DNA from: Candidatus Bathyarchaeota archaeon | GTDB taxonomy: Archaea; Thermoproteota; Bathyarchaeia; Bathyarchaeales; SOJC01 | Reading direction: 5' to 3' | DNA length: 23,695 bases | Assembly: GCA_030608925.1 (NCBI GenBank) | Contig: JAUWDF010000001.1 | Span: 1 to 23,695 of the forward strand | Shown here: piece by piece, positions 6,336 through 20,039 of the stretch | Position numbering within the stretch: the stretch's first letter is position 1 | How the letters are laid out: each line of letters begins with the position of its first letter | Position numbers and translations under genes: made by a program | The notes under the pieces: generated by a model | The model's input: the letters and a program-made list of their open reading frames with translations, nothing else | What the model was told of the DNA's origin: nothing | Databases searched by the model: none

Positions 6336-6483
6336 AACATCCTCTGTGTATATATAAATTGATTGGTCTATGCCACCCATCTAATGCCACCAGATATCTA
6401 CTATCTGTTTTCTTTAGTTCTTTTTCACAAATAAAGCAGGTATATTTACTTCTCCAATCAAACGCCTTTGTTTTTCTGCTCAC
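6262..6483 (-). CDS. Small zinc-binding protein, unknown function
   Basis: The product is 73 residues from GTG 6483. CFIC near residue 17, followed ~28 residues later by HRGC, forms a C-C-H-C metal-binding set. In between lies a short beta-rich stretch (RYLVALDG). I do not recognise a named family. It overlaps the preceding zinc protein by 26 bases and the next by 74, so its translation is probably coupled. It is likely an early phage protein because it is close to the divergent promoter region. Confidence 0.6.
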   Translation of the reverse strand: MSRKTKAFDWRSKYTCFICEKELKKTDSRYLVALDGWHRPINLYIHRGCYDQAKIEEIIKNDEKRPRITDDIV

Positions 6484-6712
6484 GTTGATGTCTCCTTAAT
6501 ACTTCTTGCAGTAAAGGAACAAATTTAACATCCCTAAGTAGCCTAGTATCTCCAGAGAAAACAAAATTCAAAAGAGCGTTAGCATCTTTAACTGAAAGGG
6601 GCAGATAAACTAAGTCGTGGTCGTTACGACATTCATCTGCTTTCTCAGGGTGAGTATAAACTTTTCTACAATACGAACAGGCATAATCACCTGTCTTGGT
6701 TTTAACTGCCAC
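6458..6712 (-). CDS. Small zinc-finger protein, first gene of leftward operon
   Basis: The product is 84 residues from GTG 6712. The start is supported by TAGGAGG 7 bases upstream. A CxxC...C...H set is visible in CSYCRKVYTHPEKADEC followed by NDHD, a C2CH-like finger. The C-terminal half is helical and ends in a basic stretch. Small phage proteins of this kind are common and mostly uncharacterised. It is the first gene downstream of the leftward consensus promoter at 6786-6814. The spacer between its ribosome site and start codon overlaps the -35 box of the rightward promoter at 6713. Confidence 0.7.
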   Translation of the reverse strand: MAVKTKTGDYACSYCRKVYTHPEKADECRNDHDLVYLPLSVKDANALLNFVFSGDTRLLRDVKFVPLLQEVLRRHQREQKNKGV

Positions 6713-6741
6713 TTGACAACCTCCTAGAAGTATGCTATAAT
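6713..6741 (+). promoter_or_regulatory. Perfect sigma70-type promoter, rightward
   Basis: TTGACA (6713-6718), a 17-base spacer and TATAAT (6736-6741), with an extended -10 TGC directly before the -10 box. All twelve core positions match the sigma70/sigma-A consensus. Transcription would start near 6748 and read toward the DNA polymerase gene. It faces the leftward promoter at 6786-6814, so the two initial transcripts overlap. Confidence 0.85.
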
Positions 6742-6785
6742 GTAGACATTACTAGAAATCTCCGTAGGTCTGATACACTGACCAC

Positions 6786-6814
6786 ATTATAGCCTATTTT
6801 AGAGTTCTTGTCAA
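6786..6814 (-). promoter_or_regulatory. Perfect sigma70-type promoter, leftward
   Basis: On the minus strand TTGACA (6814-6809), a 17-base spacer and TATAAT (6791-6786) match the consensus at all twelve positions. Transcription would start near 6779 and run through the rightward promoter into the zinc-finger gene starting at 6712. It is the only strong leftward promoter I found, so it probably drives the whole minus-strand operon. Confidence 0.85.
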
Positions 6815-6830
6815 TAGGACTAGGGTACTA

Positions 6831-6859
6831 TTGACAACGTATCCAATTTGCTGTATCAT
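6831..6859 (+). promoter_or_regulatory. Near-consensus rightward promoter
   Basis: TTGACA (6831-6836), a 17-base spacer, and TATCAT (6854-6859, one mismatch). It is the second rightward promoter before the DNA polymerase gene. The resulting leader of ~110 bases would contain the AGTACATATAT repeats. Confidence 0.65.
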
Positions 6860-6886
6860 ACTGACAGGAAACGTTCTTCCTTTAAC

Positions 6887-6967
6887 AGTACATATATTAG
6901 TGTTCTTTAAATGGTTTACTATGTTAACTGGGAGTACATATATAATATAAATATGTTACACAGTTAA
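6887..6967 (+). repeat. AT-rich region with direct and inverted repeats ahead of the polymerase gene
   Basis: AGTACATATAT occurs twice as an exact 11-base direct repeat (6887-6897 and 6933-6943). TTAACTG (6924-6930) and CAGTTAA (6961-6967) form a 7-base inverted repeat. The stretch also contains TATAATATAAA. The region is much more AT-rich than its surroundings. It could be an operator or an origin-unwinding element; neither is shown by sequence alone. The rest of the 262-base gap between 6712 and 6975 holds only the promoters listed. Confidence 0.4.
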
Positions 6968-6974
6968 AGAGGAA

Positions 6975-8903
6975 ATGGTCTTAAAGGGAAAAATGGCAAA
7001 GCCACCTGTAAAATTTATTGGTAGTGATAATTCCTATGCGGAGAGTATCTCTGACCTACTTGAACTAGGAAAAGAACAGCCTGTATATCTGGACTTAGAG
7101 GCTTCAAGTCTCGACCCATTTACAGGCACTTTAATTTTACTACAAATTGGTACAGAGTCGTGGGTTAACATTTATGATGTTAGACATTTATCTGAGGATA
7201 AGGTCAAACATTTACTTGCCTTAGTAGAACAACATGAAGTTGTGGGACACAATATAAAGTTTGATATGTTGTATATCTATGAAAAGTACGGAGTACTTCT
7301 TCCTAGAGTATACGACACCATGCTTGTAGAAGCTATACTGGTCGCCGGAATCGGCGACCCATACGCTTCTTTAGAAAGTCTCATAAAAAAGTATTGTAAC
7401 GCAGAAGTTGATAAGGGTCTTAGAGATGCATTCATAGATAACCCGACGGTGCAAATTACACCAGAGTTAATTGAATATGCCGCCGATGACGTTATGTATC
7501 TTCCATTTATTCGTAAAGACCAGAAGGAAGCAATCGTTGAAAAGAAGTCTGCAAATGTATTCAAATTAGAGATGAGACTTCTGCCAACCGTAGTCAGAAT
7601 GGAACATCGGGGAGTTTTGTTAGACAAGGATTTGTGGAAAAAATTATCGAAGATAGCCACAGAGAAAGCCAGCGAGTTGTCTGAAACCATTATAGGAGAA
7701 ATTCTAAAGACTGTTGAGAAGGAAATTCACGACCAGCAGTTTGAAAATGGTAAAGACATGCTGGATTTTTTCAAGGTGACATTAAGAGGAGAGCACAAAA
7801 GAGTAGCATATTCCAGAGAATACCTTGGGTCTGTAACTGATGAAGCCGAGATGGTGAAAGTTTTCTTTGATGATTTCAACCCATCCAGTAGCCATCAGAT
7901 GCGAAGAATTATGAATTTGATGGGAATTCCGTGTGATACCACAAATTCTAAATATCTAAAGAGAGATTTTGGCGATAACGAATTCGTAGCCCTGCTCATT
8001 TCTTATAGAGAGTGGTTGAAACTGGCAACATCGTTTGGAGAAAACTTTTTTGCACATATCAATCCAAAGACAGGAAGAATTCACTCTAGCTTTGACCAGT
8101 TAGCCACTAGAACAGGAAGGTTTGCATCGTCAAAACCTAACCTGCAAAATATTAAAAGGGAGTCAGACTATAGACATAGTTTTATAGCCCCCGATGACCA
8201 TGTAATAGGAACGTATGATTATTCTCAGATAGAATTGCGGTTAGCGGCACAGTGTAGTCAAGATGGTAGGATGTTGTCTATCTTTAATGAAGGTAGAAAC
8301 ATGCACACTGAAACCGCTGTAGCAGTTTTTGATATGTCCGAGACTGAGGAAGATAAGGAAGTTTATACAAACGCAAAGAGTTTAAACTTCGCTATCTTAT
8401 ATGGAACATCAGCTAGAGGAATTGCCTATAACTTTTCTCTCCCACATTCCAGAGGGTTTGAAATTTTAGAGGCACATCAAGAGCTTTTCCCTGACTTGCA
8501 TAGATTTATTGATGACTCTAGAGAGATTATTCTTGAGAGGGCTTATTCAGCAACACCGTTTGGTAGACGAAGATACTTTACTGTTCCTTATAGATTTAAA
8601 ACGAAGAATGATTTGAAGGCTAAGTTTAAGATTTATAAGGAAGGCTTCAACCACATAATTCAGGGAGGTAGTGCGGATATGTTGAAGATTGCTATGGTAA
8701 AAATACATGAGCAGAATCCCTTTGGGGAAAAGCTGTGTCCTATCATACAGGTACATGATGAAATCGTATTCGAGATTCATGAGAGTATACAGGAGGAGGC
8801 GGATAAATTTATACGAGAGCAGATGATTGAAGCTGGAGAGATATTTATAACAGATGTTCCTGTCGAGGTAGACGGACATCTAAAACCATATTGGGAGAAA
8901 TAA
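6975..8903 (+). CDS. polA: Family A DNA polymerase with 3'-5' exonuclease
   Basis: The product is 642 residues and replicates phage DNA. The exonuclease domain comes first: Exo I LDLEAS (D40, E42), Exo II GHNIKFD (N93, D97), Exo III EYAADD (Y168, D172), so proofreading looks intact. The polymerase domain has motif A DYSQIELR (D415, E420), motif B KSLNFAILYG (K468, F472, Y476) and motif C VHDE (D595). There is no 5' nuclease domain, as in many phage PolA proteins. Phe at the 762-equivalent position is the common form. A second start at 6993 has better ribosome-site spacing (AAAGGG) and would remove six residues. The gene ends in TAATAG, four bases before recA, so the two are probably co-transcribed. 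Confidence 0.95.
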   Translation: MVLKGKMAKPPVKFIGSDNSYAESISDLLELGKEQPVYLDLEASSLDPFTGTLILLQIGTESWVNIYDVRHLSEDKVKHLLALVEQHEVVGHNIKFDMLYIYEKYGVLLPRVYDTMLVEAILVAGIGDPYASLESLIKKYCNAEVDKGLRDAFIDNPTVQITPELIEYAADDVMYLPFIRKDQKEAIVEKKSANVFKLEMRLLPTVVRMEHRGVLLDKDLWKKLSKIATEKASELSETIIGEILKTVEKEIHDQQFENGKDMLDFFKVTLRGEHKRVAYSREYLGSVTDEAEMVKVFFDDFNPSSSHQMRRIMNLMGIPCDTTNSKYLKRDFGDNEFVALLISYREWLKLATSFGENFFAHINPKTGRIHSSFDQLATRTGRFASSKPNLQNIKRESDYRHSFIAPDDHVIGTYDYSQIELRLAAQCSQDGRMLSIFNEGRNMHTETAVAVFDMSETEEDKEVYTNAKSLNFAILYGTSARGIAYNFSLPHSRGFEILEAHQELFPDLHRFIDDSREIILERAYSATPFGRRRYFTVPYRFKTKNDLKAKFKIYKEGFNHIIQGGSADMLKIAMVKIHEQNPFGEKLCPIIQVHDEIVFEIHESIQEEADKFIREQMIEAGEIFITDVPVEVDGHLKPYWEK

Positions 8904-8906
8904 TAG

Positions 8907-9950
8907 ATGGCAAAAAGAAAAATGACTTTTATAGAAGAAATCAAAGAGGAATTTGGAGATGATGTCTTGGCTAAATCCAAAGTAGACTATGTTATTCCAA
9001 CAAGCTCAACGGCACTTAATATCTCTACTGGAATTGGAGGCATCCCTAAAGGTAGGTTTACTCACATCTTTGGACCTGAATCATCTGGTAAAACAACGCT
9101 TGCTCTTGACATCACGAAGAATGCATTGCAATATGGTGGGAAGGTATTATATCTAGACGTAGAGCAGACTTTAGATGGAGACATGGCACAAAGAATATTG
9201 GGAGACTTGGTTGAGGGAGATAACTTCGTAGTAATTCTACCCGATACCGCTGAGAATGCGTTTCTTATCTCAGAGAAAGCTATTAATGAGGGAAACTTTG
9301 ATGTTATCATTCTAGATTCAGTAGCGGCACTTTCTCCTGAGAAGGAACAAGAAGATGCTTTTGAGGATGCCCACTATGCTCTCACTCCGAGAGCACTAAC
9401 AAAGTTTTTTAGACGGAATGCTTTTAAGGTACGGAAGGCTGACATTGCCTTTGTTTTACTAAATCAAATTAGAGCAAACATCGGGAGTTTCTTCAAAGAC
9501 TTTGAAATTCCAGGCGGGAATGCTTTGAAGCACTATGCTTCAATTAATATATCGTTGTTTGCGCTATCGAGCGATAAGAATAGAATCAAAATAAAGGTTG
9601 ATGACAAGGAAGTTTCTATTGGAAATCCTATAAAGTTTTCTATTCCCAAGAACAAGGTTGGTATCCCACACCGCTCTGCAAAATTTCCGATTATTTGGGG
9701 AGAGGGTGTAGACCCCGTTAGAGATATTTATATGTTCGCTAACGACCTAGGAGTTATCAAAACCAGAGGACCTTACAAAGCCTACGGTGATGACACCATT
9801 GGTTTAGGGGCGAGCAAGACAATAGAGGTTTTAGAAAAGGACGAGGAACTACTTGACAAAATCAAAAAAGAGTGTTATACTATAGGCGGAGTTGAACCCA
9901 AACCTTATGTAAAAGAAAAGGAGGAGGAAGATGGCGGGACGGAGGATTGA
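8907..9950 (+). CDS. recA: RecA-like recombinase
   Basis: The product is 347 residues, close to normal RecA length. Walker A is GPESSGKTT (about residues 56-64), the catalytic glutamate is in YLDVEQTLD, Walker B is VIILDS, and the L2-like region is QIRANIGSFFKDFEIPGGNAL. The C-terminus is strongly acidic (KEKEEEDGG), as in bacterial RecA. It should bind ssDNA and drive strand exchange in phage recombination and replication restart. It sits four bases after the polymerase gene and overlaps the next small gene by 20. An internal promoter lies within its 3' end (9853-9881). Confidence 0.95.
   Translation: MAKRKMTFIEEIKEEFGDDVLAKSKVDYVIPTSSTALNISTGIGGIPKGRFTHIFGPESSGKTTLALDITKNALQYGGKVLYLDVEQTLDGDMAQRILGDLVEGDNFVVILPDTAENAFLISEKAINEGNFDVIILDSVAALSPEKEQEDAFEDAHYALTPRALTKFFRRNAFKVRKADIAFVLLNQIRANIGSFFKDFEIPGGNALKHYASINISLFALSSDKNRIKIKVDDKEVSIGNPIKFSIPKNKVGIPHRSAKFPIIWGEGVDPVRDIYMFANDLGVIKTRGPYKAYGDDTIGLGASKTIEVLEKDEELLDKIKKECYTIGGVEPKPYVKEKEEEDGGTED
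9853..9881 (+). promoter_or_regulatory. Intragenic near-consensus promoter at end of recA
   Basis: TTGACA (9853-9858), a 17-base spacer, TATACT (9876-9881, one mismatch), with TGT directly before the -10 box as an extended -10. It lies inside recA, 50 bases before the gene at 9931. It would allow separate expression of the small protein and SSB genes. Confidence 0.7.
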
Positions 9951-10233
9951 TTATAATAGAACATACTTCTTAGGGCAATTCAAAAACCTCAAGATTAACC
10001 ATGCTCTTGAGGACTTGCCTGAGCACATCTGGACAAATCCAGATGCAATGGATTTACTTAGTTATTCTTTACTGATTGCCACGGAGAGAGACTTCCGAAG
10101 GTATCAGATATTAGTAAAGGAGGTAGGAGAATTAACATTAGAAGATGGATTAGCGTACCTTAGTGACCTTAGAGATGAAACATATAAAGAAATACAAAAC
10201 CTATTGAAAAACGGAGAAGAAGAAAATGCCTAA
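9931..10233 (+). CDS. Small helical protein, unknown function
   Basis: The product is 100 residues, starting 20 bases inside the end of recA with a very strong ribosome site (AGGAGGAGG). It looks all-helical and acidic toward the C-terminus, with no recognisable motif, membrane segment or cysteine. I do not recognise a family. It lies between recA and SSB and shares the transcript from the internal recA promoter, so a role as a recombination or replication accessory is plausible but unproven. Its end overlaps the SSB start by 8 bases. Confidence 0.75.
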   Translation: MAGRRIDYNRTYFLGQFKNLKINHALEDLPEHIWTNPDAMDLLSYSLLIATERDFRRYQILVKEVGELTLEDGLAYLSDLRDETYKEIQNLLKNGEEENA

Positions 10234-11083
10234 GTTTGTTGAATTTCCAAAGACAGAAGAATTCCAAACCTTCGAGAGGCCAAAGTACCTCACATTTGTA
10301 GAAGGAAAACCTTCAATCGTCAGAATCTTAGATGTTCAGGCATATCACAAAAAGGTTCATTGGATTAATAGACAGAGAATTAGTGTGCTGTGCTTGGGAG
10401 ATGTCTGTCCAATCTGTGCTAATAACGCAAAGATTCGGAAAGAAAATCCCAAGAATTTTAGAAATGTAAAGGGTTATCTCCCTTATCAGAATCGCTACAT
10501 GATTAATGTACTAGACCGCACCCCCGTTAAGATTGACGAGGAAACCAGCGAAGAATATCAATCCTTCAAAGGTGAATTTCCTAGTGTTACATCTGATGGA
10601 AACCGTAGTCTAGCAAATGTTCAAGAAGTTCCTTCTAACACAATCAAAATTCTTGAGCGTGGTAGAACGCTATTTGAACAGCTTCTCGCTTTACACATGG
10701 AAACAGGCGAGTTTGATGACGAAGAAAATCTTACTAGCGGAGGCTTATCATCCTTCGATATTAAGTTTGTAACAATGGGCGAAGGACGCGATAAAGTAGT
10801 CTCACCCATTCCGATTACTCCGAATAACGACGATGTAGCTCCTATTCTGGAGGAGAACGATTTGCATAAGCACGTTCTTTCTACAGTCGGTTTGCAACTT
10901 TCCCCTGCTGAGATGGACCAAGTGGCTTACGCCAATGTGCCACTGAGCGATATCTTTGCTCAGAGGAGAGCAGAGGATACTACAGATTCCGAATCGGAAG
11001 TAAGAACACTCTCTGATGCCAGCGAAGCTGTGAAGGCTTTGTTTAAGGAAGGAGAGGGTGATGAGGTAGAAGTGAGTTACTAA
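10226..11083 (+). CDS. Single-stranded DNA-binding protein, T4 gp32-like
   Basis: The product is 285 residues. A zinc site typical of gp32-like proteins is seen near H45, C56, C61 and C64 (segment CLGDVCPIC), within an OB-fold-like N-terminal half. The C-terminus is acidic (EGEGDEVEVSY), as in SSBs that recruit partners through their tails. It is similar in length to T4 gp32 (301). It should coat ssDNA at the fork and cooperate with the neighbouring polymerase, RecA and helicase. The start overlaps the previous gene. A structured RNA candidate follows immediately after its stop; T4 gene 32 is known to autoregulate through an RNA pseudoknot, but there the element is upstream. Confidence 0.85.
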   Translation: MPKFVEFPKTEEFQTFERPKYLTFVEGKPSIVRILDVQAYHKKVHWINRQRISVLCLGDVCPICANNAKIRKENPKNFRNVKGYLPYQNRYMINVLDRTPVKIDEETSEEYQSFKGEFPSVTSDGNRSLANVQEVPSNTIKILERGRTLFEQLLALHMETGEFDDEENLTSGGLSSFDIKFVTMGEGRDKVVSPIPITPNNDDVAPILEENDLHKHVLSTVGLQLSPAEMDQVAYANVPLSDIFAQRRAEDTTDSESEVRTLSDASEAVKALFKEGEGDEVEVSY

Positions 11084-11092
11084 CCCTTAGAT

Positions 11093-11173
11093 GTCCAGCC
11101 CTCGGCAATGCACAATAGGTGCATGACGTTTCACTGGACTAGACCATACCGAACAGAGGGCTGTGGTATGGTC
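11093..11173 (+). ncRNA. Structured RNA candidate with pseudoknot, between SSB and helicase genes
   Basis: Three perfect stems fit together: GTCCAG (11093-11098) with CTGGAC (11134-11139), ATGCAC (11108-11113) with GTGCAT (11119-11124), and GACCATACC (11142-11150) with GGTATGGTC (11165-11173). In addition CAGCCCTC (11096-11103) can pair with GAGGGCTG (11156-11163) in the loop of the last hairpin, making a pseudoknot; it shares three bases with the first stem, so five base pairs can form at the same time. No uridine run follows, so it is not a standard terminator. No known riboswitch or ribozyme consensus is apparent. It lies upstream of the 52-residue gene and the helicase. Confidence 0.5.
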
Positions 11174-11184
11174 ACAAAAATATT

Positions 11185-11343
11185 ATGAGTAAACGACCAG
11201 ATAATAAATGGGACAAGCGCGACAAAAAACGACATAAGCAACGACACGGAATGAGAATTACGGGTCGAAGTGTTTTCATCTTGGATGATATAATCAAGAA
11301 GAAATCAAAGGAAGCCGAGGAGAAAAAAGAAAATGAGCAATGA
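11185..11343 (+). CDS. Small very basic protein, 52 residues
   Basis: ATG 11185 to TGA 11343. The sequence is packed with lysine, arginine and histidine in the first 24 residues (segment KRDKKRHKQRHG), then ITGRSVFILDDII and a charged tail. The pattern of basic residues followed by GRSVF-like segments occurs in small phage proteins I have seen near replication genes, but I cannot name a family. The stop overlaps the helicase start by 11 bases, which suggests translational coupling. No strong ribosome site precedes it; the RNA structure just upstream may control its translation. A nucleic-acid-binding role is inferred from charge. Confidence 0.55.
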   Translation: MSKRPDNKWDKRDKKRHKQRHGMRITGRSVFILDDIIKKKSKEAEEKKENEQ

Positions 11344-12673
11344 CCTATTCCTCTCCGGTCATGAGGATAGCCTACTGGCTATTCTTATGCGGGATGGAGA
11401 TAAAATTTACGACGCTATGGGTGTTGTTACACACGAAATGTTTTCTTCAAACATAGCAGGACAAATCTATTTAGCTATGTCGGAATTAGTAAAAAACGAC
11501 CACGCACCAACACCTGTAAATGTTATTGGATACCTAGAATCTAAGAAAAGAATAAATTTGGCTGGCGGAAAAGGGCATGTTGAGATGCTTGCCAGCAAAG
11601 AAGTAGATGTATCAGGATATGGAATTTTTCTAAATAGCGTTATAGATTCATACAAGGCTAGGGTACTTCATCAGCTGGCGGTTGATTTACCTGTGCTGAT
11701 TCAAAATCAACCAGTTGATGAGGTAATTGCTAAGGCACAAAGTCAAATTACAGGGCTTGACGAACAAAGACCTAATGGTGGTGTAAAGAGTATTGAGGAA
11801 CTATTAATTTCTGCTTATGATATTATTAAGGTAAAGAAAGATAACCCTGGAATTGTGGGAGCTACCACAGGCTTTCCGACCCTAGATTTTGCAACAAACG
11901 GGTATAATGAAGGTACTCAATAGATTTATAGTGGAAGGCCCGGTTCAGGAAAAACTACGGTAATGATTCAGTCATTCAAAAATGCGGCACAGAAAGACGT
12001 TCCATCTTTGATTTTCAACAGGGAGATGGGACCTATGGAATTGATGTTCAGGTTTCTTGCTATGGATGAGAGTATTCCATATCAGGAAATTGTAACAGGC
12101 GTAGATTTGAGCGATAGCAAGGTGGAAAGACTTGGACGTTCAAGAAGAAGGTTGGGCAAACTACCCATCTATCTAGACTCAAATTATTACGGAGATATTC
12201 GTCAGGTTGTTAGTACAATACGAAAATATCATAGAACACATGGCATACGACTTGTTGGGATTGACTACGTTCAATTACTTGCCGAGAGACAGCATGACCA
12301 AGTGGCAGAGCTTGGACGTATTTCCAGAGAGCTAAAACTATTATCCCTTGACTTGGGTATAACGGTAGTTATTCTGTCTCAACTAAATAGAAAGGTAGAG
12401 GACAGGGATGATAGACGACCTATTCTATCAGACCTGAGACAGAGCGGTAATCTCGAAGAGGATGCTGATGTGGTTATAGGGTTATACCGAGATGATATGT
12501 ATAAAGAAAACTCTCCTCAAGCTGGAACAGTTGAATTTCTTATACTCAAGCAGAGGAATGGACCCACTGGTAGCTATCCAATGAAGTTTCATGGGAAGTA
12601 CCTACAGGTGCAGGATATTCAAAGCGAGGAAGAAGTTTTTAGATTTGGGAAAAAAGATGACAATAAACAGTAA
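11333..12673 (+). pseudogene. dnaB: DnaB-like replicative helicase interrupted by an in-frame TAG
   Basis: The frame from 11333 to 12673 would encode 446 residues, the usual DnaB length, but codon 197 (11921-11923) is TAG. Before it lies a complete DnaB N-terminal domain and linker (GFPTLDFATNGY). Right after it comes Walker A GRPGSGKTT, then Walker B VGIDYVQLL, the sensor ILSQLNRK, SDLRQSGNLEEDADVV, and the finger segment KQRNGPTG. Everything is intact apart from the amber. The next ATG (11963) would lose Walker A, so a re-initiated product would be inactive. The gene may be read through or suppressed, or the base may be a sequencing error or a real mutation. It should unwind the fork 5'-3' and bind the DnaG-type primase encoded at 19188. 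Confidence 0.85.
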
Positions 12674-13121
12674 AGATAAAGGCGCTAGATGGGAACGAGA
12701 TGCAGTAGAATTACTCAATTCACTGTATGAGGGAACGTGGAGAAAAATTCCAGGTTCAGGTGCTTTCGGAGCAATCCTAGATATCCCTGAGCTAAGGGGA
12801 GATTTGGTTGGACGCTATTACTTTATGCCAATATCTTTTCGAGTGGATGCTAAGACCGGATATGGTGGAGCTACACAGCTTACTGTAAAAAGAGAGTGGC
12901 TAGAAAAAATTAGATTAGAAGCAGAGGCTTTAGACAGGTATGAAATTCCTTGTTTACTATGTAAATTTTCCGGCTCACGCACCGAGGTAAAGCATTTCTT
13001 TGTCTTTGATACAAGTGCTTTTCACGATGTCATTGAGGTTATAGAGGACTTGTATAATGAAAATATAAGACTTCGTGAGAAATTGGAGAACTATAATTAT
13101 GGAATTGACGAGGATGTTTAG
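12657..13121 (+). CDS. Hjc-like Holliday junction resolvase / PD-(D/E)XK nuclease
   Basis: The product is 154 residues from ATG 12657, overlapping the helicase end by 17 bases. The start KDKGARWERDAVELL and IPGSGAFGA are characteristic of archaeal Hjc-like and phage resolvases. The catalytic signature appears as ELRGDLV followed by FRVDAKTG, a D...DxK form of the PD-(D/E)XK site (canonical: D...ExK). The C-terminus is helical and likely dimerising. It should cleave branched DNA during recombination or before packaging. The gene ends in TAG followed directly by TGA. Confidence 0.75.
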   Translation: MTINSKDKGARWERDAVELLNSLYEGTWRKIPGSGAFGAILDIPELRGDLVGRYYFMPISFRVDAKTGYGGATQLTVKREWLEKIRLEAEALDRYEIPCLLCKFSGSRTEVKHFFVFDTSAFHDVIEVIEDLYNENIRLREKLENYNYGIDEDV

Positions 13122-13557
13122 TGATATAGATTTAAATAAAATAGCAGAGGATATCTGGAGGAGAAAAGGTAAGAGTGCTACTCTGTGGGATGTGCTCGTA
13201 GAAGTACTAGCTCAAAAAGCAGATACCGAACCTTTTATTATATGGATGATGTCAGACTTCGCTGTTATTGAGTTGGTGGCTAGAGGTCACGGCGTTGATT
13301 ACATCGTGGATGTTCTCGATATTCCAAAGAAAGAGATAGCGAGTACTTGCAAAACTTGGGGCATGTTTTGTCTCAAAGAAACCCTTGACTTTGACCCTGT
13401 TTTAGTGTATAATGAGGGCATGACAATGTTGGAATACAAAGAAAAGCTACGACCAATCTTGTATTATGTGCCCGATGATGAGGATTTAGAGGACACCGTT
13501 ATCAATGTGGAGAAGTATAGGAGTGTCAAGAAACTACTTGACGAGTGGAGGAAATAA
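13099..13557 (+). CDS. Unknown protein with helix-turn-helix-like segment
   Basis: The product is 152 residues from ATG 13099 (GGAG upstream); a start at 13075 is less well placed. Residues ~67-90 (segment GHGVDYIVDVLDIPKKEI) look like a helix-turn-helix, as in proteins that decide binding at a DNA site. The rest is helical and acidic toward the end. I do not recognise a family. It overlaps the resolvase gene by 23 bases and meets the next gene in TAATG. A promoter-like element at 13385-13413 sits inside it, followed by an in-frame ATG at 13420 that would give a ~45-residue C-terminal product. Confidence 0.7.
   Translation: MELTRMFSDIDLNKIAEDIWRRKGKSATLWDVLVEVLAQKADTEPFIIWMMSDFAVIELVARGHGVDYIVDVLDIPKKEIASTCKTWGMFCLKETLDFDPVLVYNEGMTMLEYKEKLRPILYYVPDDEDLEDTVINVEKYRSVKKLLDEWRK
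13385..13413 (+). promoter_or_regulatory. Intragenic near-consensus promoter
   Basis: TTGACT (13385-13390, one mismatch), a 17-base spacer and TATAAT (13408-13413). Transcription would begin at about 13420, exactly where an in-frame ATG lies. It could drive the genes from 13557 onward or a short form of the surrounding gene. Confidence 0.6.
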
Positions 13558-13868
13558 TGAGCGCAGATAACTTGATTGCTATTCAGAAAATAGGAGATTG
13601 GTATTATGTATGGCACGAGTCAGCATCTAACGAATGTCCTATGCCCGACCTTCAAACCTATAAAACCTTGAGGGCGGAAACAGCTAAGGCATACGCACAC
13701 GAATTGCATGACGAGTGTATGATTGTAGAGTATGGTGTCGTAACGTTTCCTGAGGTAGATAATGAAGTGCTTTGGTTTGCTGACATTCTCAGGAGACAGA
13801 CGGAATGGATTTTTGACATGCTGTTAGAGATTAGACGTTTGGCAAGGAAAATTAGTAAGGAGGAGTAA
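13557..13868 (+). CDS. Small unknown phage protein, SADN family type
   Basis: The product is 103 residues from ATG 13557, sharing its A with the previous stop (TAATG), and preceded by GGAGG with five-base spacing. It begins MSADNLIAI, a start I have seen in many small phage proteins of unknown function. Aromatic-rich WYYVWHE follows, then a helical C-terminal half. No catalytic motif is visible. It lies in a run of small genes between two nucleases. Confidence 0.7.
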   Translation: MSADNLIAIQKIGDWYYVWHESASNECPMPDLQTYKTLRAETAKAYAHELHDECMIVEYGVVTFPEVDNEVLWFADILRRQTEWIFDMLLEIRRLARKISKEE

Positions 13869-13869
13869 T

Positions 13870-14244
13870 ATGGCTAAGGAATTACAGCTACCTGATTTTG
13901 ATGAGATGTTAGATATGGCTGGCGGTATTGGAGGGTTGACTAGAGATATATCCCTCCAGAAAAATCAACTAGACGCTGAACTCGCGGCTGTTACTAGAGT
14001 TATTATGAATGACGAGAAGCATTGGGCTGGCAAAACTAAGCCTCCTGCCATGAATTATATTCAGGCAACTTTCCATAAGGAAGGTTACAACAAGGAAACC
14101 GAGCGAAGGATTGTGGAGTTACGAAATAGTATCGCTGGCATGGAAGGGGACTTAGAATATATGAAAAGAAAGTTTCAAATTTACGCGGCTATGATTGATG
14201 TATGGAAAGCGTCGCAGTATAATTTGAATCAGAGTACATACTAA
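13870..14244 (+). CDS. Unknown coiled-coil protein
   Basis: The product is 124 residues from ATG 13870 with AGGAGG five bases upstream. Two long helical stretches (about 25-50 and 80-120) are rich in charged residues and hydrophobic heptads, suggesting a coiled-coil hairpin. There are no cysteines and no recognisable catalytic motif. I do not recognise a family. It runs directly into the Cas4-like nuclease by a TAATG overlap, so a structural or partner role with that nuclease is possible but only inferred from position. Confidence 0.7.
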   Translation: MAKELQLPDFDEMLDMAGGIGGLTRDISLQKNQLDAELAAVTRVIMNDEKHWAGKTKPPAMNYIQATFHKEGYNKETERRIVELRNSIAGMEGDLEYMKRKFQIYAAMIDVWKASQYNLNQSTY

Positions 14245-15032
14245 TGGTTGATGAAATTAGACTTAGCTATTCATCTATGAAGGATGCGGGGGCTTGTTTG
14301 AAGCGATACTGGTATCGTGTCAAGAAGCCGAAATCAGCTATACCCAATGAGCACATGATATTTGGGAGCATTGTGCATACCTCTATCGAGAGACTAGAGA
14401 AGAAGGACAGAGAAATTGGTAAGCTAATCGGGTGGTCATTGCATGAGTGGGAAAGAAGAATGGCTTCATCTGGAAGGGGCTTTTTAGCCAAGCTACCTAG
14501 ACCTCCTAAGTCTTTCAAACGGATGTATGAAAACTACGCGGAGCTTATTAGACCTAGGTTACAAACTCCTGCTGAGGAAGATGGTGTCGAGAAATTCTTC
14601 AAGATTAAGCTAGACTATCCTACCTTGGGAGATAATATCTATTTCGTAGGAAAGATAGACAGGATTGACAACGAGAATATCTACGATTGGAAAACAAACG
14701 GAAGATTGCCCGATACCTATGACCTGCATGACACACAGTTTTATGCATACTGGTGGGCATACCGTCAGCTATTCAAACGTAATCCAAAGGAAATTCTCTA
14801 TGGACATCTCAATAGCGGAAGCGTGTATAATATTAGTATGGACACTACTCTATTAGAAAACTTTGAAGTGCTACTTGACAATAGAGCAGAAACATTGTAT
14901 AATGCATGGAAGCACAACGAATTCCCTCGTGATATGGGGTATCAATGTAAAGGTTGTGTGTATAGAACGGCATGTTATGGAGACTTGGTGCAGGAACACA
15001 TAGAAGAAAGCGCAAGTGAAGCATGTCGCTAA
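14244..15032 (+). CDS. Cas4/RecB-like PD-(D/E)XK exonuclease with iron-sulfur cysteines
   Basis: The product is 262 residues. Motifs in order: C18, GSIVH (H45), GKIDRID (D139), YDWKTN (D148, K150), QFYAYWW (Q165) and C235, C238, C244. This is the RecB/AddB/Cas4 nuclease layout, with one N-terminal and three C-terminal cysteines likely holding a 4Fe-4S cluster. Here the catalytic triad reads D...DxK. It should process DNA ends during recombination. It has no independent ribosome site and relies on the TAATG junction with the upstream gene. A perfect promoter lies in its 3' end, 120 bases before the next start. No cas1, cas2 or repeat array is nearby, so a CRISPR role is not supported. Confidence 0.85.
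   Translation: MVDEIRLSYSSMKDAGACLKRYWYRVKKPKSAIPNEHMIFGSIVHTSIERLEKKDREIGKLIGWSLHEWERRMASSGRGFLAKLPRPPKSFKRMYENYAELIRPRLQTPAEEDGVEKFFKIKLDYPTLGDNIYFVGKIDRIDNENIYDWKTNGRLPDTYDLHDTQFYAYWWAYRQLFKRNPKEILYGHLNSGSVYNISMDTTLLENFEVLLDNRAETLYNAWKHNEFPRDMGYQCKGCVYRTACYGDLVQEHIEESASEACR
14875..14903 (+). promoter_or_regulatory. Perfect sigma70-type promoter inside the Cas4-like gene
   Basis: TTGACA (14875-14880), a 17-base spacer and TATAAT (14898-14903) match the consensus at all twelve positions. Transcription from about 14910 would read the sigma-like gene starting at 15023 and everything downstream. Confidence 0.75.
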
Positions 15033-15394
15033 TAGTAGAAGAATATCTCAAGTCATTATATCGTATCTTAGATGCTGGTAATATTGAAAGCGACCAATTC
15101 AATAACGCTCTCAGCATTCAAACAACCGTAGAGATGCTAAAAGAGAAGGGTAATATATCGGAATTTGATATTGGAGTGTTACACGGAATTGCAAGTGGAT
15201 TTAACTTTTCGGAGATTTCCACGCTGTTCTGTGCTGACCGAAAACGAGTAGCCAAGTCTTTTAGAAGTTCATGTAGAAAGATAGCTTTCATTCTAGGGAA
15301 CGAATTTACAGACACAGGATTTATGTACAACGTTGCCGCTAGACATGCGGTAGGAAGTGAAAAACAAGAGAGGTTGAAAGAGTTTTTTAAATGA
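15023..15394 (+). CDS. Sigma-region-4-like / helix-turn-helix protein
   Basis: The product is 123 residues. The middle (segment EFDIGVLHGIASGFNFSEI, then ADRKRVAKSFRS) resembles region 4 of sigma factors: a helix, a turn and a recognition helix, then a coupling helix. It lacks an obvious region 2, so it is not a full sigma factor. It could be an anti-sigma, a partial phage sigma or a DNA-binding regulator. It overlaps the Cas4-like gene by 10 bases and the next zinc gene through ATGA. It lies directly downstream of a perfect promoter, so it might be expressed early. Confidence 0.65.
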   Translation: MSLIVEEYLKSLYRILDAGNIESDQFNNALSIQTTVEMLKEKGNISEFDIGVLHGIASGFNFSEISTLFCADRKRVAKSFRSSCRKIAFILGNEFTDTGFMYNVAARHAVGSEKQERLKEFFK

Positions 15395-15570
15395 GAAGGT
15401 GTATTCTTTGTGGAGAGGAGTTGCACTCAGACGAGCATTCTATTTGCTCATTGTGCGACCCCAACGGAAATTTAAATTATCGTGGAGTGACTAATGCTGG
15501 AAAAACTAAAAGAAACATTAGAAAACAAAAGCGGTTTGAAAAGGACAGTGAGGTAAGAGATGATTACTAA
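15391..15570 (+). CDS. Small zinc-finger protein, 59 residues
   Basis: ATG 15391 overlaps the previous TGA (ATGA) and the gene ends at TAA 15568-15570. C4, C7, C19 and C22 (segment CILCGEELHSDEHSICSLC) form a treble-clef-like zinc site, with two histidines between. The C-terminal half is basic (KTKRNIRKQKRF). It resembles HNH- or ribbon-type small zinc peptides but has no nuclease residues. It overlaps the Myb-exonuclease gene by 11 bases. A nucleic-acid contact role is likely from charge; no family name is claimed. Confidence 0.65.
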   Translation: MRRCILCGEELHSDEHSICSLCDPNGNLNYRGVTNAGKTKRNIRKQKRFEKDSEVRDDY

Positions 15571-16264
15571 ATGGACTGAGGAAGAAGATAAGTTACTTAT
15601 CCAACTCAGGAAGAAGAACATCCCTTATAAAGCACTACCCGAATTCTTTAAAAACAGGAGTCAAGATGCCTGTAGGAATAGGGCATGGGTGCTTCAAAGT
15701 CAGACAAGTAATACTTGGCTAGACGATGAAATAATCGGTGTGTACGATATTGAAACGACCAATCTCAAAGCGAATGTTGGATTTTGTCTGTCGTGGTATA
15801 TGATTTGTTCTGACGGAAAAGAAATTGGTAGTTGTATAAAGCGCAAAGAGATACTGAACGGTAAGACGGATGAAAGAGTAATCAAAGAGTTTCTCGAAGC
15901 ACTAAAGAATGTTGATGTGCTTGTGGGCTATTACAATACAAACTTCGACAATACTTTTATGAGAACTCGTGCAGAGGTTCACGGCTATGATTTCCCGTCT
16001 TTTGGAAGTCTGAAAAATCTAGACCTTTTCTATACTGTACGGTCTAAACTAAACTTGACAAGAAAAAGTCTTGGTGCGGCATGTGAAGCTCTTGGAATAG
16101 GTGAGAAAACTCATGAGCCAATAGCCGTATGGAATAAAGCTAGGATAGGTCATCAAAAAAGCATAGATGCCATTTATAAATATAATAAAAATGACGTTAG
16201 ACTTACATATGAACTCTTTGAAAGATTGAAGAAATACCGCAAGTTTATCCGCAGAAGCATCTAA
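15560..16264 (+). CDS. Myb/SANT-like domain fused to DEDD 3'-5' exonuclease
   Basis: The product is 234 residues. Residues 1-48 (KWTEEEDKLLIQLR ... RSQDACRNRAW) resemble a Myb/SANT-like or homeodomain-like DNA-binding helix bundle. Residues ~58-228 are an RNase H-like exonuclease: VYDIETTN (D63, E65), GYYNTNFDNTF (N and D), and the third motif IYKYNKNDVRL (Y, ND). The exonuclease type is close to those in YprB or the proofreading part of family B polymerases. It would remove nucleotides from 3' ends, perhaps at sequences bound by the first domain. GAGG precedes the start. No polymerase domain is attached. Confidence 0.8.
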   Translation: MITKWTEEEDKLLIQLRKKNIPYKALPEFFKNRSQDACRNRAWVLQSQTSNTWLDDEIIGVYDIETTNLKANVGFCLSWYMICSDGKEIGSCIKRKEILNGKTDERVIKEFLEALKNVDVLVGYYNTNFDNTFMRTRAEVHGYDFPSFGSLKNLDLFYTVRSKLNLTRKSLGAACEALGIGEKTHEPIAVWNKARIGHQKSIDAIYKYNKNDVRLTYELFERLKKYRKFIRRSI

Positions 16265-16283
16265 TCGGAAAAGGAGATAGTTG

Positions 16284-16670
16284 GTGGACACAAATGCGCA
16301 AAAATCTGTAGAGGAACGGTTGACTGAGATGTATGAACAGTCAGTGGAACGGGAATATAAGGGTCGTGTCATGGACGTTAGAGTTGAATCTACTACTGAT
16401 GATATGAAGATGTATAAGATTACTGGAAAGTTAACGTTATCTGTATCTGAAAACAACGACGAGACATGGCAAGCGAAAGACTTTGAAGTTATGACCTATG
16501 AGAACGACCCTGATATGGGCGTTGCTCAGGTGTTTGCATACCTTAACTCAATACCTATGGAATATGGTGATATGATATTTGAGGAAGGTTTCGATGAACT
16601 TATTAGCGGTTTATTGGAGAGTGCAGATGGGAAAGCCGAAATGCCACAGGAGAAAACGCCCGTCCAGTAA
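16284..16670 (+). CDS. Small acidic protein, unknown function
   Basis: The product is 128 residues from GTG 16284 (AAGGAG seven bases upstream); a TTG at 16281 is an equivalent start. It is acidic, with a beta-strand-rich middle (MYKITGKLTLSVSE) and a helical, acidic end. No cysteines or catalytic motif are apparent. I do not recognise a family. It lies in a cluster of four small genes after the exonuclease and overlaps the next small gene by 44 bases. Confidence 0.65.
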   Translation: MDTNAQKSVEERLTEMYEQSVEREYKGRVMDVRVESTTDDMKMYKITGKLTLSVSENNDETWQAKDFEVMTYENDPDMGVAQVFAYLNSIPMEYGDMIFEEGFDELISGLLESADGKAEMPQEKTPVQ

Positions 16671-16821
16671 GTCAAAATTAGGAAATGGGCGAAAACGATT
16701 TAGAAGTACAGAAAGTTTTCTTAGGCGGATACTGGATAAAGCAGTAGAGGAGTGGAGAGATGGAAGTACAGATTACTTATCTCGAAGGAGTCAATTCCAT
16801 CGTCATCAAGGGGACGAATAA
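16627..16821 (+). CDS. Small basic protein overlapping both neighbours
   Basis: The product is 64 residues from ATG 16627, preceded by GGAGAG at good spacing. It is strongly basic (segment CHRRKRPSSKSKLGNGRKRF) with a helical middle. It overlaps the acidic gene upstream by 44 bases and the next gene by 62 in other frames. The ribosome site and low alternative coding content support it, but such heavy overlap makes it uncertain. Nucleic-acid binding is inferred from charge alone. Confidence 0.45.
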   Translation: MGKPKCHRRKRPSSKSKLGNGRKRFRSTESFLRRILDKAVEEWRDGSTDYLSRRSQFHRHQGDE

Positions 16822-16957
16822 AGCCTTCATTACAACAAAAGACTCAGTCATTTTCAATCGAGATATGCTAACTCATATCATTATAGCAATGTTAAACAAA
16901 GGCTATATTGACTATAAAGTGTTTGAAGGTGCATTGGAACAAATCCATACCGCCTAA
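16760..16957 (+). CDS. Small unknown protein, 65 residues
   Basis: ATG 16760 follows AGAGGAG and TGGAGAG. The N-terminal half is predicted beta (VQITYLEGVNSIVIKG), the C-terminal half helical. There are no conserved motifs I recognise. It ends 14 bases before the next gene. Of the overlapping pair at 16627-16957 this has the more protein-like composition. Confidence 0.6.
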   Translation: MEVQITYLEGVNSIVIKGTNKAFITTKDSVIFNRDMLTHIIIAMLNKGYIDYKVFEGALEQIHTA

Positions 16958-16971
16958 CTGGAGATAGAGAA

Positions 16972-17274
16972 ATGGAATTAAAAGCTAAAAGTGAGTGGGA
17001 CTTGAATGAAATGTCTCGCGACGAGTTAGTTTATATTTGGAAAACCTTTTACAAAAGGACTCTTAGTGACCTAAGTAGTGGCTATGTATCTGCTAAAGCT
17101 CTTAGAGAAGCAATTGCTTCTGAATTAGAAGCCGAAAAAGAAGGCGTAGCTAGTACAACCAGTAGCTTTGAGTTTGTAGACATAGAAGAAGCCGAAGCAA
17201 TAGATGAGGATGCTGAATACGAGTGGTATACAGCACCAGGTTCTAGTGCTAGACAGCGAAGGAGAAAGACATAA
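16972..17274 (+). CDS. Small unknown protein with acidic linker and basic tail
   Basis: The product is 100 residues with GGAG upstream. The first half is helical (DLNEMSRDELVYIWKTF), followed by a long acidic stretch and a basic end (SARQRRRKT). The start resembles SAP-like or small phage DNA-contact helices, but not enough to assign one. It joins the membrane-protein gene by TAATG, so the two are probably translated together. Confidence 0.6.
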   Translation: MELKAKSEWDLNEMSRDELVYIWKTFYKRTLSDLSSGYVSAKALREAIASELEAEKEGVASTTSSFEFVDIEEAEAIDEDAEYEWYTAPGSSARQRRRKT

Positions 17275-17585
17275 TGTTTGTATTGACCCCTGAACAACTG
17301 TTTGCATTTGCCCTTTCGGGCGTGATTGTTGCGTTGGTGCTTGAATACTTCCCCAAAGTGGCGGATTGGTATAACGCACTCGCAGATAATATTCAGAGAT
17401 TGATTGTTCTTGGCTCAGGTTTAGTAGTCGTATTAGGTGCGTTTGGTTTGACCTGCTTAGAAATTATAGCTCTGCCGTGGGTTTGTACATGGCCGGGACT
17501 TTATGATGCTACGTTAGCTTATGTAGCTTTCATCGTTGCAAGTCAGTCTGCATATCTAGTGTTACCGAAACCAGATAGAAGCTAA
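17274..17585 (+). CDS. Membrane protein with three predicted helices, holin-like
   Basis: The product is 103 residues with hydrophobic segments at about 9-27, 42-64 and 80-96, and a short hydrophilic C-terminus (PKPDRS). The size and three-helix topology fit class I holins, which form lesions in the inner membrane at lysis. No endolysin is recognisable next to it, so the holin call rests on topology only. It could instead be a generic phage membrane protein. GAAGGAG lies nine bases before the ATG, and the start overlaps the previous stop. A secreted protein gene follows 86 bases later. Confidence 0.6.
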   Translation: MFVLTPEQLFAFALSGVIVALVLEYFPKVADWYNALADNIQRLIVLGSGLVVVLGAFGLTCLEIIALPWVCTWPGLYDATLAYVAFIVASQSAYLVLPKPDRS

Positions 17586-17607
17586 GTAATAGAATAAGGT
17601 GACGACT

Positions 17608-17619
17608 ACCTTTAAAGGT
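17608..17619. promoter_or_regulatory. 12-base perfect palindrome upstream of secreted protein gene
   Basis: ACCTTTAAAGGT is its own reverse complement. It sits in the 86-base gap between the membrane-protein gene and the secreted-protein gene. It could be an operator or a weak hairpin. A G-rich stretch (GGGGTGTGGTGGTGGGG) follows directly. Confidence 0.3.
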
Positions 17620-17671
17620 CGGGGTGTGGTGGTGGGGCAAATCTACCCTTCTCTTAGTGATGAGGAGGTAT

Positions 17672-18361
17672 ATGCTAAAAAGATTTTTGCTAGCCATTGT
17701 TATGATTATTTTAACAATGTTACTAGGAGGTAGTACACTACGTCAGGGGGAAGAATGTGTAGCATACTACGGGGCAGAGATGTTCTGTATCCCCGATAAC
17801 ATTACCTTAAAAACATGGTTTACTCCTGCGCCTGAGTATATGAAAGGGAATGCTGTATGGTATTCTCCTCAGCTAATGGAGGCAACCGCTATATATAGAG
17901 GACTCGACTTAAAAGGCTATTTAGATGGAGTGAGTTTGATGTCTCCCGCAGACATTGGTAAGACGGTCTGGATAAACCATCCTGATTTGGGATGGGAGGG
18001 ACCATATCTTGTTGTTGACTGTGCTCAACAGAATCATATGTACGGAGTAATAGTCTCTCGCGATGAAGTGGTTGAAGTAGGTTATACCACAGCGGTGCGA
18101 TGGGGTATGGTAAATAACTATAAAGTATATGAGTATCGTATAGATGGTGTCGAAGTCTATGTTGGAGAGACACTCCCATACTATATTGAACATGCTTCAA
18201 GATGGTCATGGAAGTTTGATATTGATATTTCTCCTGTAAATTATAGACAGCAGTTTTTAGACACCCTTACATTCACTAGCATAGATGAGGGTAGACCCAT
18301 CATAATAGGTCCGACAACATGGAAGATGCCTGATGGGACAATTTTTGAAAACTTAAAATAA
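17672..18361 (+). CDS. Secreted protein of unknown function, possibly double-psi-barrel-like
   Basis: The product is 229 residues from ATG 17672, with GAGGAGG seven bases upstream. The GTG at 17624 would put a hydrophilic extension before the signal and is unlikely. Residues 2-20 (LKRFLLAIVMIILTMLLGG) form a signal peptide or N-terminal anchor with no lipobox cysteine. The mature part has MSPADIGKTVWINHP and WEGPYLVVDCAQ, then a segment ending TAVRWGMV. These recall cell-wall-associated double-psi beta-barrel proteins, but I cannot confirm the family. Together with the upstream membrane protein it may act at the envelope, in lysis or exclusion. Confidence 0.65.
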   Translation: MLKRFLLAIVMIILTMLLGGSTLRQGEECVAYYGAEMFCIPDNITLKTWFTPAPEYMKGNAVWYSPQLMEATAIYRGLDLKGYLDGVSLMSPADIGKTVWINHPDLGWEGPYLVVDCAQQNHMYGVIVSRDEVVEVGYTTAVRWGMVNNYKVYEYRIDGVEVYVGETLPYYIEHASRWSWKFDIDISPVNYRQQFLDTLTFTSIDEGRPIIIGPTTWKMPDGTIFENLK

Positions 18362-18365
18362 TAAC

Positions 18366-18474
18366 TAACCCGCCCGCATTGAGGGCACAGGCACGCCTTG
18401 TAAGTAATGATAAGCCTTCGGGTATACATGAAAGCAACTAACGGCTTAGTGAGCGACCTGAACGGGCGGGATTA
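18366..18474 (+). ncRNA. Structured RNA candidate closed by a GC-rich stem
   Basis: CCCGCCCG (18369-18376) pairs exactly with CGGGCGGG (18463-18470), and TAA (18366-18368) can pair with TTA (18472-18474) past one bulged A, giving an 11-pair closing stem. Inside, CATT (18377-18380) pairs with AATG (18406-18409), enclosing a hairpin ACAGG/CCTTGT with loop CACG. TAAGCC (18411-18416) pairs with GGCTTA (18443-18448). This is a multi-branched RNA in a 129-base gap with no gene. No uridine run follows, so it is not a simple terminator. It does not match a riboswitch consensus I recall. It lies 16 bases before a zinc-ribbon gene and the methyltransferase array. Confidence 0.5.
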
Positions 18475-18490
18475 GAAATAAAGGCGTGGC

Positions 18491-18643
18491 ATGAAGTGTC
18501 CAGTTTGTAATGGCTGTTTGAAAAACAAGGGTCTTATTGTTGTTGGAAGTAAACGACAGCAGAGTCGCTACTGTAGTTTTTGCAAGAAAACTTTCACAAG
18601 GGAGAGAGGAAAGCCGTGGACAGAGCTTATAAAATCATCTTAG
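18491..18643 (+). CDS. Small zinc-ribbon protein, 50 residues
   Basis: ATG 18491 to TAG 18643. CPVCNG at residues 3-8 and YCSFCKKTF at 27-35 form a four-cysteine ribbon like those at the N-terminus of IS1 InsA and of many small phage regulators. The C-terminus is short and basic. It overlaps the MT-A70 gene start by 28 bases, so it may be translated together with it. Function is unknown; DNA contact is likely from the fold. Confidence 0.6.
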   Translation: MKCPVCNGCLKNKGLIVVGSKRQQSRYCSFCKKTFTRERGKPWTELIKSS

Positions 18644-19173
18644 CAGACCCCCCGTGGACTTTCAAGGTGTGGTCTGACAAGGGCAAAGGTAGGTCAGCAG
18701 AAAATCACTATCCAGTTATGAGTCTAGATGATATAAAATCTTTAGACATTGCAAGTATAGCAGACGAGGATAGTGTTTTGTTTCTATGGGCTATTGACCC
18801 CATGTTAGATAGAGCCTTTGAGGTTATTGAAGCATGGGGATTTACTTATAAAACCGTGGGGTTTTATTGGATAAAAACTAATGTTAAAACAGATGGATTT
18901 TTTACAGGGCTTGGATACTACACCAGAGCAAATCCTGAGCAATGCCTACTCGCAACAAGAGGAAAAACTTTGGAACGACTTGATAAGGGCGTTAGAAAAC
19001 TGGTCGTCGCACCAAGAGGAAGGCACTCTCAAAAGCCTAGAGAAGTACAGGATGGAATTACAAGACTGTTTGGTGATTTACCGAGGGTTGAATTATTTGC
19101 TAGAGAAAGAGTAGCTGGTTGGGACTCTTGGGGGAATGAGATAGATTCGGACTTGACAATTCTCAGAAAGTAG
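18616..19173 (+). CDS. MT-A70 family N6-adenine methyltransferase
   Basis: The product is 185 residues from GTG 18616, preceded by AGAGG; a TTG at 18580 is possible but inside the zinc gene with poorer context. The catalytic motif DPPW (residues 11-14) follows KIILA, with FLWAIDPML and HSQKP later and a C-terminal RVELFARERVAGWDSWGN, all typical of phage MT-A70 enzymes. It should transfer a methyl group from SAM to adenine N6 in DNA, probably to protect phage DNA. It is the first of five methyltransferases. The stop TAG is inside the promoter at 19153-19181. Confidence 0.9.
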   Translation: MDRAYKIILADPPWTFKVWSDKGKGRSAENHYPVMSLDDIKSLDIASIADEDSVLFLWAIDPMLDRAFEVIEAWGFTYKTVGFYWIKTNVKTDGFFTGLGYYTRANPEQCLLATRGKTLERLDKGVRKLVVAPRGRHSQKPREVQDGITRLFGDLPRVELFARERVAGWDSWGNEIDSDLTILRK

Positions 19174-19181
19174 GGTATAAT
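19153..19181 (+). promoter_or_regulatory. Perfect sigma70-type promoter at the primase start
   Basis: TTGACA (19153-19158), a 17-base spacer and TATAAT (19176-19181) match the consensus at all positions. The expected transcription start is about 19188, the A of the primase ATG, so the message would be leaderless or nearly so. Confidence 0.8.
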
Positions 19182-19187
19182 AAAGGC

Positions 19188-20039
19188 ATGAGAATTGAGG
19201 ATGTTGTCTCTCAGGATTATAGATTGAGGGGAAGCGGACGCTATCTCAAGGGTGTCAAGCACGACAGTCTAGTGGTTGACCGTGAGAAGCAAATCTTCTT
19301 CTGGAATTCTAAGGAAATCGCCGGAGATATTTATGCGTGGCTCACAAAGATAAAGGGCTACGCTCCTGAGAGTGCGAGAGAATACATTAGAGAAAACTTC
19401 CCCACCTTCGAGGTTAGTTACAAACCTAGAATGAGGGGGGATGATGTAGTAGTAAATCCTAATTTAGTGGATGCTTTTTTTAACTTAGGTAAGCGTCATA
19501 GGGAATACTGGTACAGTCGTGGATATAACGACACTACAATTGATATGTTTAGATTGGGATACAGCGGAGATTGGTATGTAATCCCAATTTTTATCGGTGG
19601 TAAGTTTAGAAACTTTCAGTGCAGGACACCTGATAAGAAGATGAAGCACTGGTACTCAGGGATTGGTCCTCTGCCATACAACATGGATTACGTCAAAAAT
19701 AAGCCTTGGTTTGTCTTGACAGAAGGTCCAGTTGATGCTATAATGTGTATGCAGAATGGCATTTCTGCCATGTCTACCAACACAGGGGCAGGGTATTTCG
19801 AGCCTCAGTGGATTGGAGAGCTACCTTTGCTAGAAAGGATGTATGTAGCCTATGACAATAATGAAGCGGGGCGAAAGGGAGCGAAGGGTATTGGAAAACT
19901 TATCGGCAACCGTGTCAAAATTTACACATTCGACGGGTATGATGACGGATACGATGTGTCAGACTACTTTAACAATGGAGGAGATGCGGAGGAGCTTATG
20001 CGAAGGCTTGAAGAAGGAAAGTTCTGGTTTCAACTATGA
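19188..20039 (+). CDS. DnaG-type primase with toprim domain, zinc-less N-terminus
   Basis: The product is 283 residues. The N-terminal ~75 residues have the CHC2-like fold pattern (DSLVVDREKQIFFWNSKEIA, then GDIYAWL) but no zinc cysteines. The toprim domain has LTEGPVDA (E179) and AYDNNEAGRKGA (D223, with N225 where Asp is common), and YDVSDYF follows. It should make RNA primers for lagging-strand synthesis, with the DnaB-like helicase. It is far from the other replication genes and lies within the methyltransferase array. The ribosome site is very close to the ATG, and the promoter at 19153 would give almost no leader. Its stop overlaps the next start by ATGA. Confidence 0.85.
   Translation: MRIEDVVSQDYRLRGSGRYLKGVKHDSLVVDREKQIFFWNSKEIAGDIYAWLTKIKGYAPESAREYIRENFPTFEVSYKPRMRGDDVVVNPNLVDAFFNLGKRHREYWYSRGYNDTTIDMFRLGYSGDWYVIPIFIGGKFRNFQCRTPDKKMKHWYSGIGPLPYNMDYVKNKPWFVLTEGPVDAIMCMQNGISAMSTNTGAGYFEPQWIGELPLLERMYVAYDNNEAGRKGAKGIGKLIGNRVKIYTFDGYDDGYDVSDYFNNGGDAEELMRRLEEGKFWFQL
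19716..19744 (+). promoter_or_regulatory. Perfect sigma70-type promoter inside the primase gene
   Basis: TTGACA (19716-19721), a 17-base spacer and TATAAT (19739-19744), with TGC immediately before the -10 box, like the promoter at 6713. All twelve core bases match. It would drive the cytosine methyltransferase and later genes from about 19751. Confidence 0.75.

Follow-up and report, generated by a model that had tools for sequence, protein, structure and literature searches.

A contig binned with an archaeon carries sequences that closely resemble bacterial promoters, several of them inside genes. The DNA analysed (the window) is the whole of contig C190, 23,695 bases in length, from a bin of 1,194,217 bases and 246 contigs that is 65% complete. 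PHROG matches revealed a phage replication and modification region encoding PolA, RecA/UvsX, DnaB, an exonuclease, a Toprim primase and several DNA methyltransferases, together with a leftward block containing an epimerase-like and a methyltransferase-like gene; the majority of the genes overlap or abut. Between 18580 and 23677, five genes of DNA methyltransferase families are packed into 5.1 kb, with only the primase and one small gene between them. The gene for the DnaB-type helicase (11333–12673) is broken by an in-frame TAG at 11921–11923; its two pieces align with successive parts of a single PHROG profile and the copy in the related phage G059 is uninterrupted, and the TAG may represent a sequencing error, a mutation or recoding.

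Eight promoter elements had been reported in a preliminary description, and a search for TTGACA and TATAAT hexamers, allowing no more than one mismatch and spacers of 15–19 bases, recovered all eight at the reported coordinates, each with a spacer of 17 bases; five are perfect and three carry one mismatch (Table 1). The same description placed five of them in coding sequence, which is accurate for the four lying wholly inside genes (9853, 13385, 14875 and 19716), while the fifth, at 19153, straddles the stop codon of gene 18580–19173. If transcription is assumed to start 7 bases past the −10 hexamer, the next gene in the same direction lies 43, 125, 113, 0 and 285 bases downstream of the elements at 9853, 13385, 14875, 19153 and 19716, respectively. 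A leaderless primase transcript from 19153 was considered and dropped, as it depends solely on that assumed start.

Table 1. Promoter-like elements of the window and the genes around them (positions in the window).
Feature	Position	Strand	Remarks
P+1, perfect	6713..6741	+	TGn before −10; −35 abuts start codon of leftward gene 6458–6712
P−, perfect	6786..6814	−	towards leftward block
P+2, one mismatch (TATCAT)	6831..6859	+	towards polA
Site inside recA, one mismatch (TATACT)	9853..9881	+	69 bases before recA stop codon
Site inside gene 13075–13557, one mismatch (TTGACT)	13385..13413	+	
Site inside exonuclease gene, perfect	14875..14903	+	
Site across end of MT-A70 gene, perfect	19153..19181	+	−10 ends 6 bases before primase ATG
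Site inside primase gene, perfect	19716..19744	+	in codons for LTEGPVDAIM, a Toprim motif
Small gene with CxxC motif	6458..6712	−	no Pfam match; relatives in G059, G060 and G063
DNA polymerase A gene (polA)	6975..8903	+	PHROG
RecA/UvsX-like recombinase gene (recA)	8907..9950	+	PHROG; holds 9853 site
Gene 13075–13557	13075..13557	+	no family match; holds 13385 site
Exonuclease-family gene	14244..15032	+	PHROG; holds 14875 site
MT-A70 methyltransferase gene	18580..19173	+	19153 site across its end
Toprim primase gene	19188..20039	+	holds 19716 site
DNA methyltransferase gene behind 19716 site	20036..20755	+	no match in searched G059 and G060 stretches

The number of elements was compared with that in randomized sequences. 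In 2000 synonymous-codon shuffles, in which codons were permuted within each gene and dinucleotides were kept in the gaps, the mean was 0.043 perfect sites and 0.70 sites with at most one mismatch (maxima 1 and 4), and neither five perfect nor eight near-perfect sites were ever reached (0/2000). Shuffling the dinucleotides of the whole window 1000 times gave means of 0.008 and 0.28 (maxima 1 and 3). An equal density in codon-preserving shuffles, the outcome named beforehand as refuting, did not occur. When spacers of 14 to 20 bases were compared, perfect sites were found at 17 only; spacers of 14, 15, 16 and 18 yielded no sites with zero or one mismatch, and 19 and 20 yielded one 1-mismatch site each. 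Together, the shuffles and the spacer control rule out chance or base composition as the source of the sites. A loose rule (9 of 12 matches, spacer 16–18) showed no excess over bases 5000–23695 (51 versus 44.7 ± 7.7), and because this count is ordinary, the excess concerns only near-perfect sites with the 17-base spacer. Taken alone, each intragenic site has a P value of 0.006 to 0.08 given its protein (synonymous-codon shuffles), which is not very improbable; the case is carried by the number of sites and their conservation.

The surrounding bin and other genomes provided a wider background. The 1.19-Mb bin contains six perfect sites, of which five are in the 23.7-kb window and one in the remaining ~1.17 Mb. 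Across 40 related genomes (~66 Mb by rounded sizes), 15 perfect sites were found, distributed over 11 genomes, and the pattern read backwards occurred nine times; the density of perfect sites in the window is ~900 times that of these genomes. Among 149 loci, comprising 148 viral loci (some contigs counted twice) and one Clostridia contig, perfect sites were absent from 135, and three per contig were found only in two relatives of this phage.

Five independent related phages were identified in IMG/VR: G041 (3300028398_000015, locus L007), G059 (3300001751_000007), G060 (3300009034_000007), G061 (3300031539_004811) and G063 (3300050335_000039). Identity to the window is 61% (near copy of G059), 44% (G060), 37% (G063), 36% (G041) and 33% (G061) for PolA, and 70%, 51%, 45%, 36% and 45% for RecA of G059, G060, G063, G041 and G061, respectively. 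G059, G060 and G063 (the last analysed in two stretches) follow the gene order of the window for most of the region, whereas the primase of G061 is on the other strand and G041 stops after recA and the next gene. Collinear replication genes, for most of the region, are shared with the window by all of these phages except the truncated G041; promoters at homologous places are common to all five, and their cargo genes are different. All eight elements of the window have the geometry of the sigma70 consensus. TGn precedes the −10 hexamer in 10 of the 17 sites of the window, G059 and G041. Left out as non-independent were L185/L196, 99.6% identical to G059 over 17 kb, and L190 (G062), whose promoter sequences and primase identity do not differ from those of L189 (G061). 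Scans of viral contigs with RecA alone gave no confirmed relatives, those with the exonuclease recovered only G059, and those with gene 13075 nothing beyond G059 and its near copy. Among phage records, none was close to the window at the DNA level and none was found by the SSB-like protein, while PolA, RecA and primase gave only matches below 60% identity. At the place of the leftward block (775–5497 in the window), G041 carries packaging- and capsid-like proteins (by eye); G060 (96.7 kb) has two more perfect promoter sequences, at 76214–76242 and 77506–77534, far from its replication region.

Between the two gene blocks of the window, the elements follow one another as P+ (6713), P− (6814–6786) and P+ (6831), and this order is present in three of the six phages (the window, G060 and G063). 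All three sites are perfect in G060; in G063 both P+ sites are perfect and P− has one mismatch. The divergent region of G059 contains P+1 with one mismatch, a perfect P− and, by eye, a weak P+2, that of G041 a P− and a P+, both perfect, and that of G061 two 1-mismatch sites towards polA. The −35 hexamer of P+1 abuts the start codon of the leftward gene in G059 as well; in G063, it overlaps what is probably the start codon (by eye). P+1 and P− are convergent, with predicted transcripts that overlap by ~30 bases in the window. The back-to-back −35 boxes create an inverted repeat (arms 6808–6817 and 6828–6837, by eye), which was rejected as an operator, as its right arm is not kept in G059. A palindrome, TAGTACTA, lies upstream of polA in G041 (L007, 9743), G059 (L182, 10498) and G060 (L197, by eye) and is absent from the window.

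The intragenic sites were then located in the homologous genes. At the same codons of recA, a site with zero or one mismatch is present in five of the six phages (one mismatch in the window and G061, none in G059, G060 and G041) and absent in G063. The exonuclease site is perfect at the same codons in three of five phages (the window, G059 and G060) and absent in G061; in a low-identity alignment, a 1-mismatch site of G063 lies 16 bases upstream of the window position. Likewise, the primase site is perfect at the same codons in three of five (again the window, G059 and G060) and absent at those codons in G061 and G063, whose motifs are similar and not identical. The TTGACT-17-TATAAT site of gene 13075 occurs in two of three phages, the window and G059; in G060, this gene has kept the LDFDP residues and lost the promoter. 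The 19153 element was found only in the window, with no 0–1-mismatch counterpart at the matching place in G059 or G060.

To separate protein constraint from DNA constraint, codons were compared at residues identical between two phages in four genes, excluding Met and Trp. Between the window and G059, codons under the hexamers were identical in 17/17 cases, spacer codons, which are thus somewhat conserved too, in 9/13 and all others in 281/589 (hexamer versus rest, P=4.5 × 10−6; hexamer versus spacer, P=0.026); the G059 codons were unselected for because the sites had been picked from the window alone. Against G060, the three site-keeping genes gave 12/12 versus 171/390 (P=6 × 10−5); gene 13075 had 2/4 identical hexamer codons, and all four genes pooled gave 14/16 versus 195/445 (P=5 × 10−4). 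The recA comparisons with G061 and G041 yielded 4/4 versus 42/147 and 3/3 versus 43/114, respectively. In a pseudo-site test between the window and G059, ~16 of 308 random places were as similar as the recA site (0.052, the 5% level), while the values for the other three sites were 0 of 120, 0.5% and 0.4%. Same-codon recurrence and hexamer codon identity rule out protein constraint alone as a full account of the sites. Furthermore, the codon identity and the homologous positions indicate, as far as sequence comparison goes, that the sites are kept by selection, with the exception of 19153. A methylation motif behind this conservation, considered in view of the methyltransferase genes, was set aside; we know of no type of methylation motif that is bipartite with a gap of 17 bases.

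It is very unlikely that the intragenic sites merely reflect conserved protein motifs and preferred codons and have no promoter function. Protein-keeping shuffles never reach the total, the codon identity under the hexamers exceeds that of the same genes elsewhere, gene 13075 of G060 does without the promoter while keeping its motif, and three sites of the divergent region lie outside genes; these points stand against the fair likelihood of single sites given their proteins, the position of the 19716 site within a Toprim motif and the case of a 2-mismatch site at 14195, which is kept in G059 and is fully explained by protein and codons (P=0.50). We give slightly less credence to the proposal that the sites bind a phage protein, be it a repressor, a phage sigma factor or an RNA polymerase, or that they are sigma-dependent pause sites. 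A pause site requires no −35 hexamer at 17 bases, and the bases that are conserved match the housekeeping consensus, at the spacer length it prefers; among the PHROG results for 30 window proteins there was no phage RNA polymerase or sigma gene. Features that would fit binding of a phage protein or pausing are the C that precedes the −35 hexamer in 14 of the 17 sites of three phages (the window, G059 and G041) and the −10 motifs within genes that have been proposed to cause pauses (PMC1939733).

The least probable reading takes the contig as a virus of the co-binned archaeon, in which case the sites could not be sigma70 promoters. TFIIB domains were matched four times in the bin, on two contigs (in a control set, TFIIB matched only the four archaea), and sigma70 region 2 was not matched; the 16S and RpoB models were unmatched as well, which points to the incompleteness of the bin, and because it is 65% complete, the missing sigma gene by itself proves little. 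G+C content is also alike, at 0.405 in the window and 0.405–0.444 in the 15 readable of 20 sampled bin contigs. Against this, perfect sites are ~900-fold denser than in the related genomes and are common to other phages, and the tetranucleotide correlation of the window with the bin (0.30) is at the low end of that of the sampled contigs (0.28–0.58), all of which are shorter than the window. The bin is probably archaeal, and the window probably belongs to a bacterial phage that was misbinned; this assignment is based chiefly on the promoters, and tetranucleotide usage agrees weakly. A host search of genome contigs with the SSB-like alignment returned no relatives, and one with PolA returned a single 29% match (L186, from a Clostridia bin), whose 21 kb contain two 1-mismatch sites and none that is perfect.

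We therefore regard it as highly probable, judging from the DNA sequence, that the elements are host sigma70/sigmaA promoters of a bacterial phage, organized as a divergent control region and internal re-initiation points. Host RNA polymerase would start both the leftward and the rightward block from the P+, P−, P+ region, and the promoters in recA, gene 13075, the exonuclease gene and the primase gene, together with that at the MT-A70 gene end, would restart transcription ahead of the genes that follow; polymerase binding, the time of activity and re-initiation are all three what we infer. The preliminary description is upheld in that near-perfect promoter sequences are scattered among the replication and methylation genes far above chance. 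Modular expression instead of one long operon, its further proposal, is a possibility: most genes overlap or abut, the 18 terminator-like sites on both strands (versus 12.4 ± 3.2 in shuffles) form no clear pattern, and the internal promoters may do no more than supplement read-through. Downstream of 13385 and 19716, the gene content differs between the window and G059 while the promoter in the core gene stays; the distance to the next shared gene behind 13385 is ~0.3 kb in the window versus 1.4 kb in G059. Because gene content varies there and the promoter does not, re-initiation points beside exchangeable cargo are suggested. As a tentative extension, about which we are more doubtful than confident, perfect host promoters could be dual-coded in core replication genes of this uncultured phage lineage and selected as fixed re-initiation points, so that adjoining cargo (methyltransferases and others) might be swapped and still be expressed.

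It is generally known that promoters can occur inside phage genes. Phages with promoters of the host type, including some placed between divergent blocks, have also been described, as passages of two reports illustrate (PMC12282133, PMC4331800). In the lytic Listeria phage CKA15, early SigA-like promoters were mapped by ONT-cappable-seq, and, like those of the window, these early-gene promoters are near the housekeeping consensus (TTGAC, TATAMT); in contrast to the window, their starts were measured, and the passages concerned do not mention same-codon intragenic promoters (PMC12282133). Phage 7-11 resembles the window in its predicted host-type sigma70 promoters, mostly with 17-base spacers in the part of the list considered, and in its two divergent blocks; it differs in that the motif search covered intergenic regions plus 30 bases of upstream gene ends and in that the sites in this part are less perfect than those of the window (PMC4331800). 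What is unusual here is a perfect consensus at the same codons even though the RecA proteins are only 36 to 70% identical to that of the window, and a literature survey by title or abstract start revealed nothing on intragenic phage promoters that are conserved at identical codon positions. Searches for phage promoters restricted to intergenic regions, of the kind described in the passages on phage 7-11 (PMC4331800), may miss promoters written inside genes, for which synonymous conservation under the hexamers offers a sequence-only test. Furthermore, the promoters found here strongly suggest that a contig assigned to an archaeal bin belongs to a bacterial virus, and for a phage group without a close relative in the searched phage records, the sites predict a transcription map.
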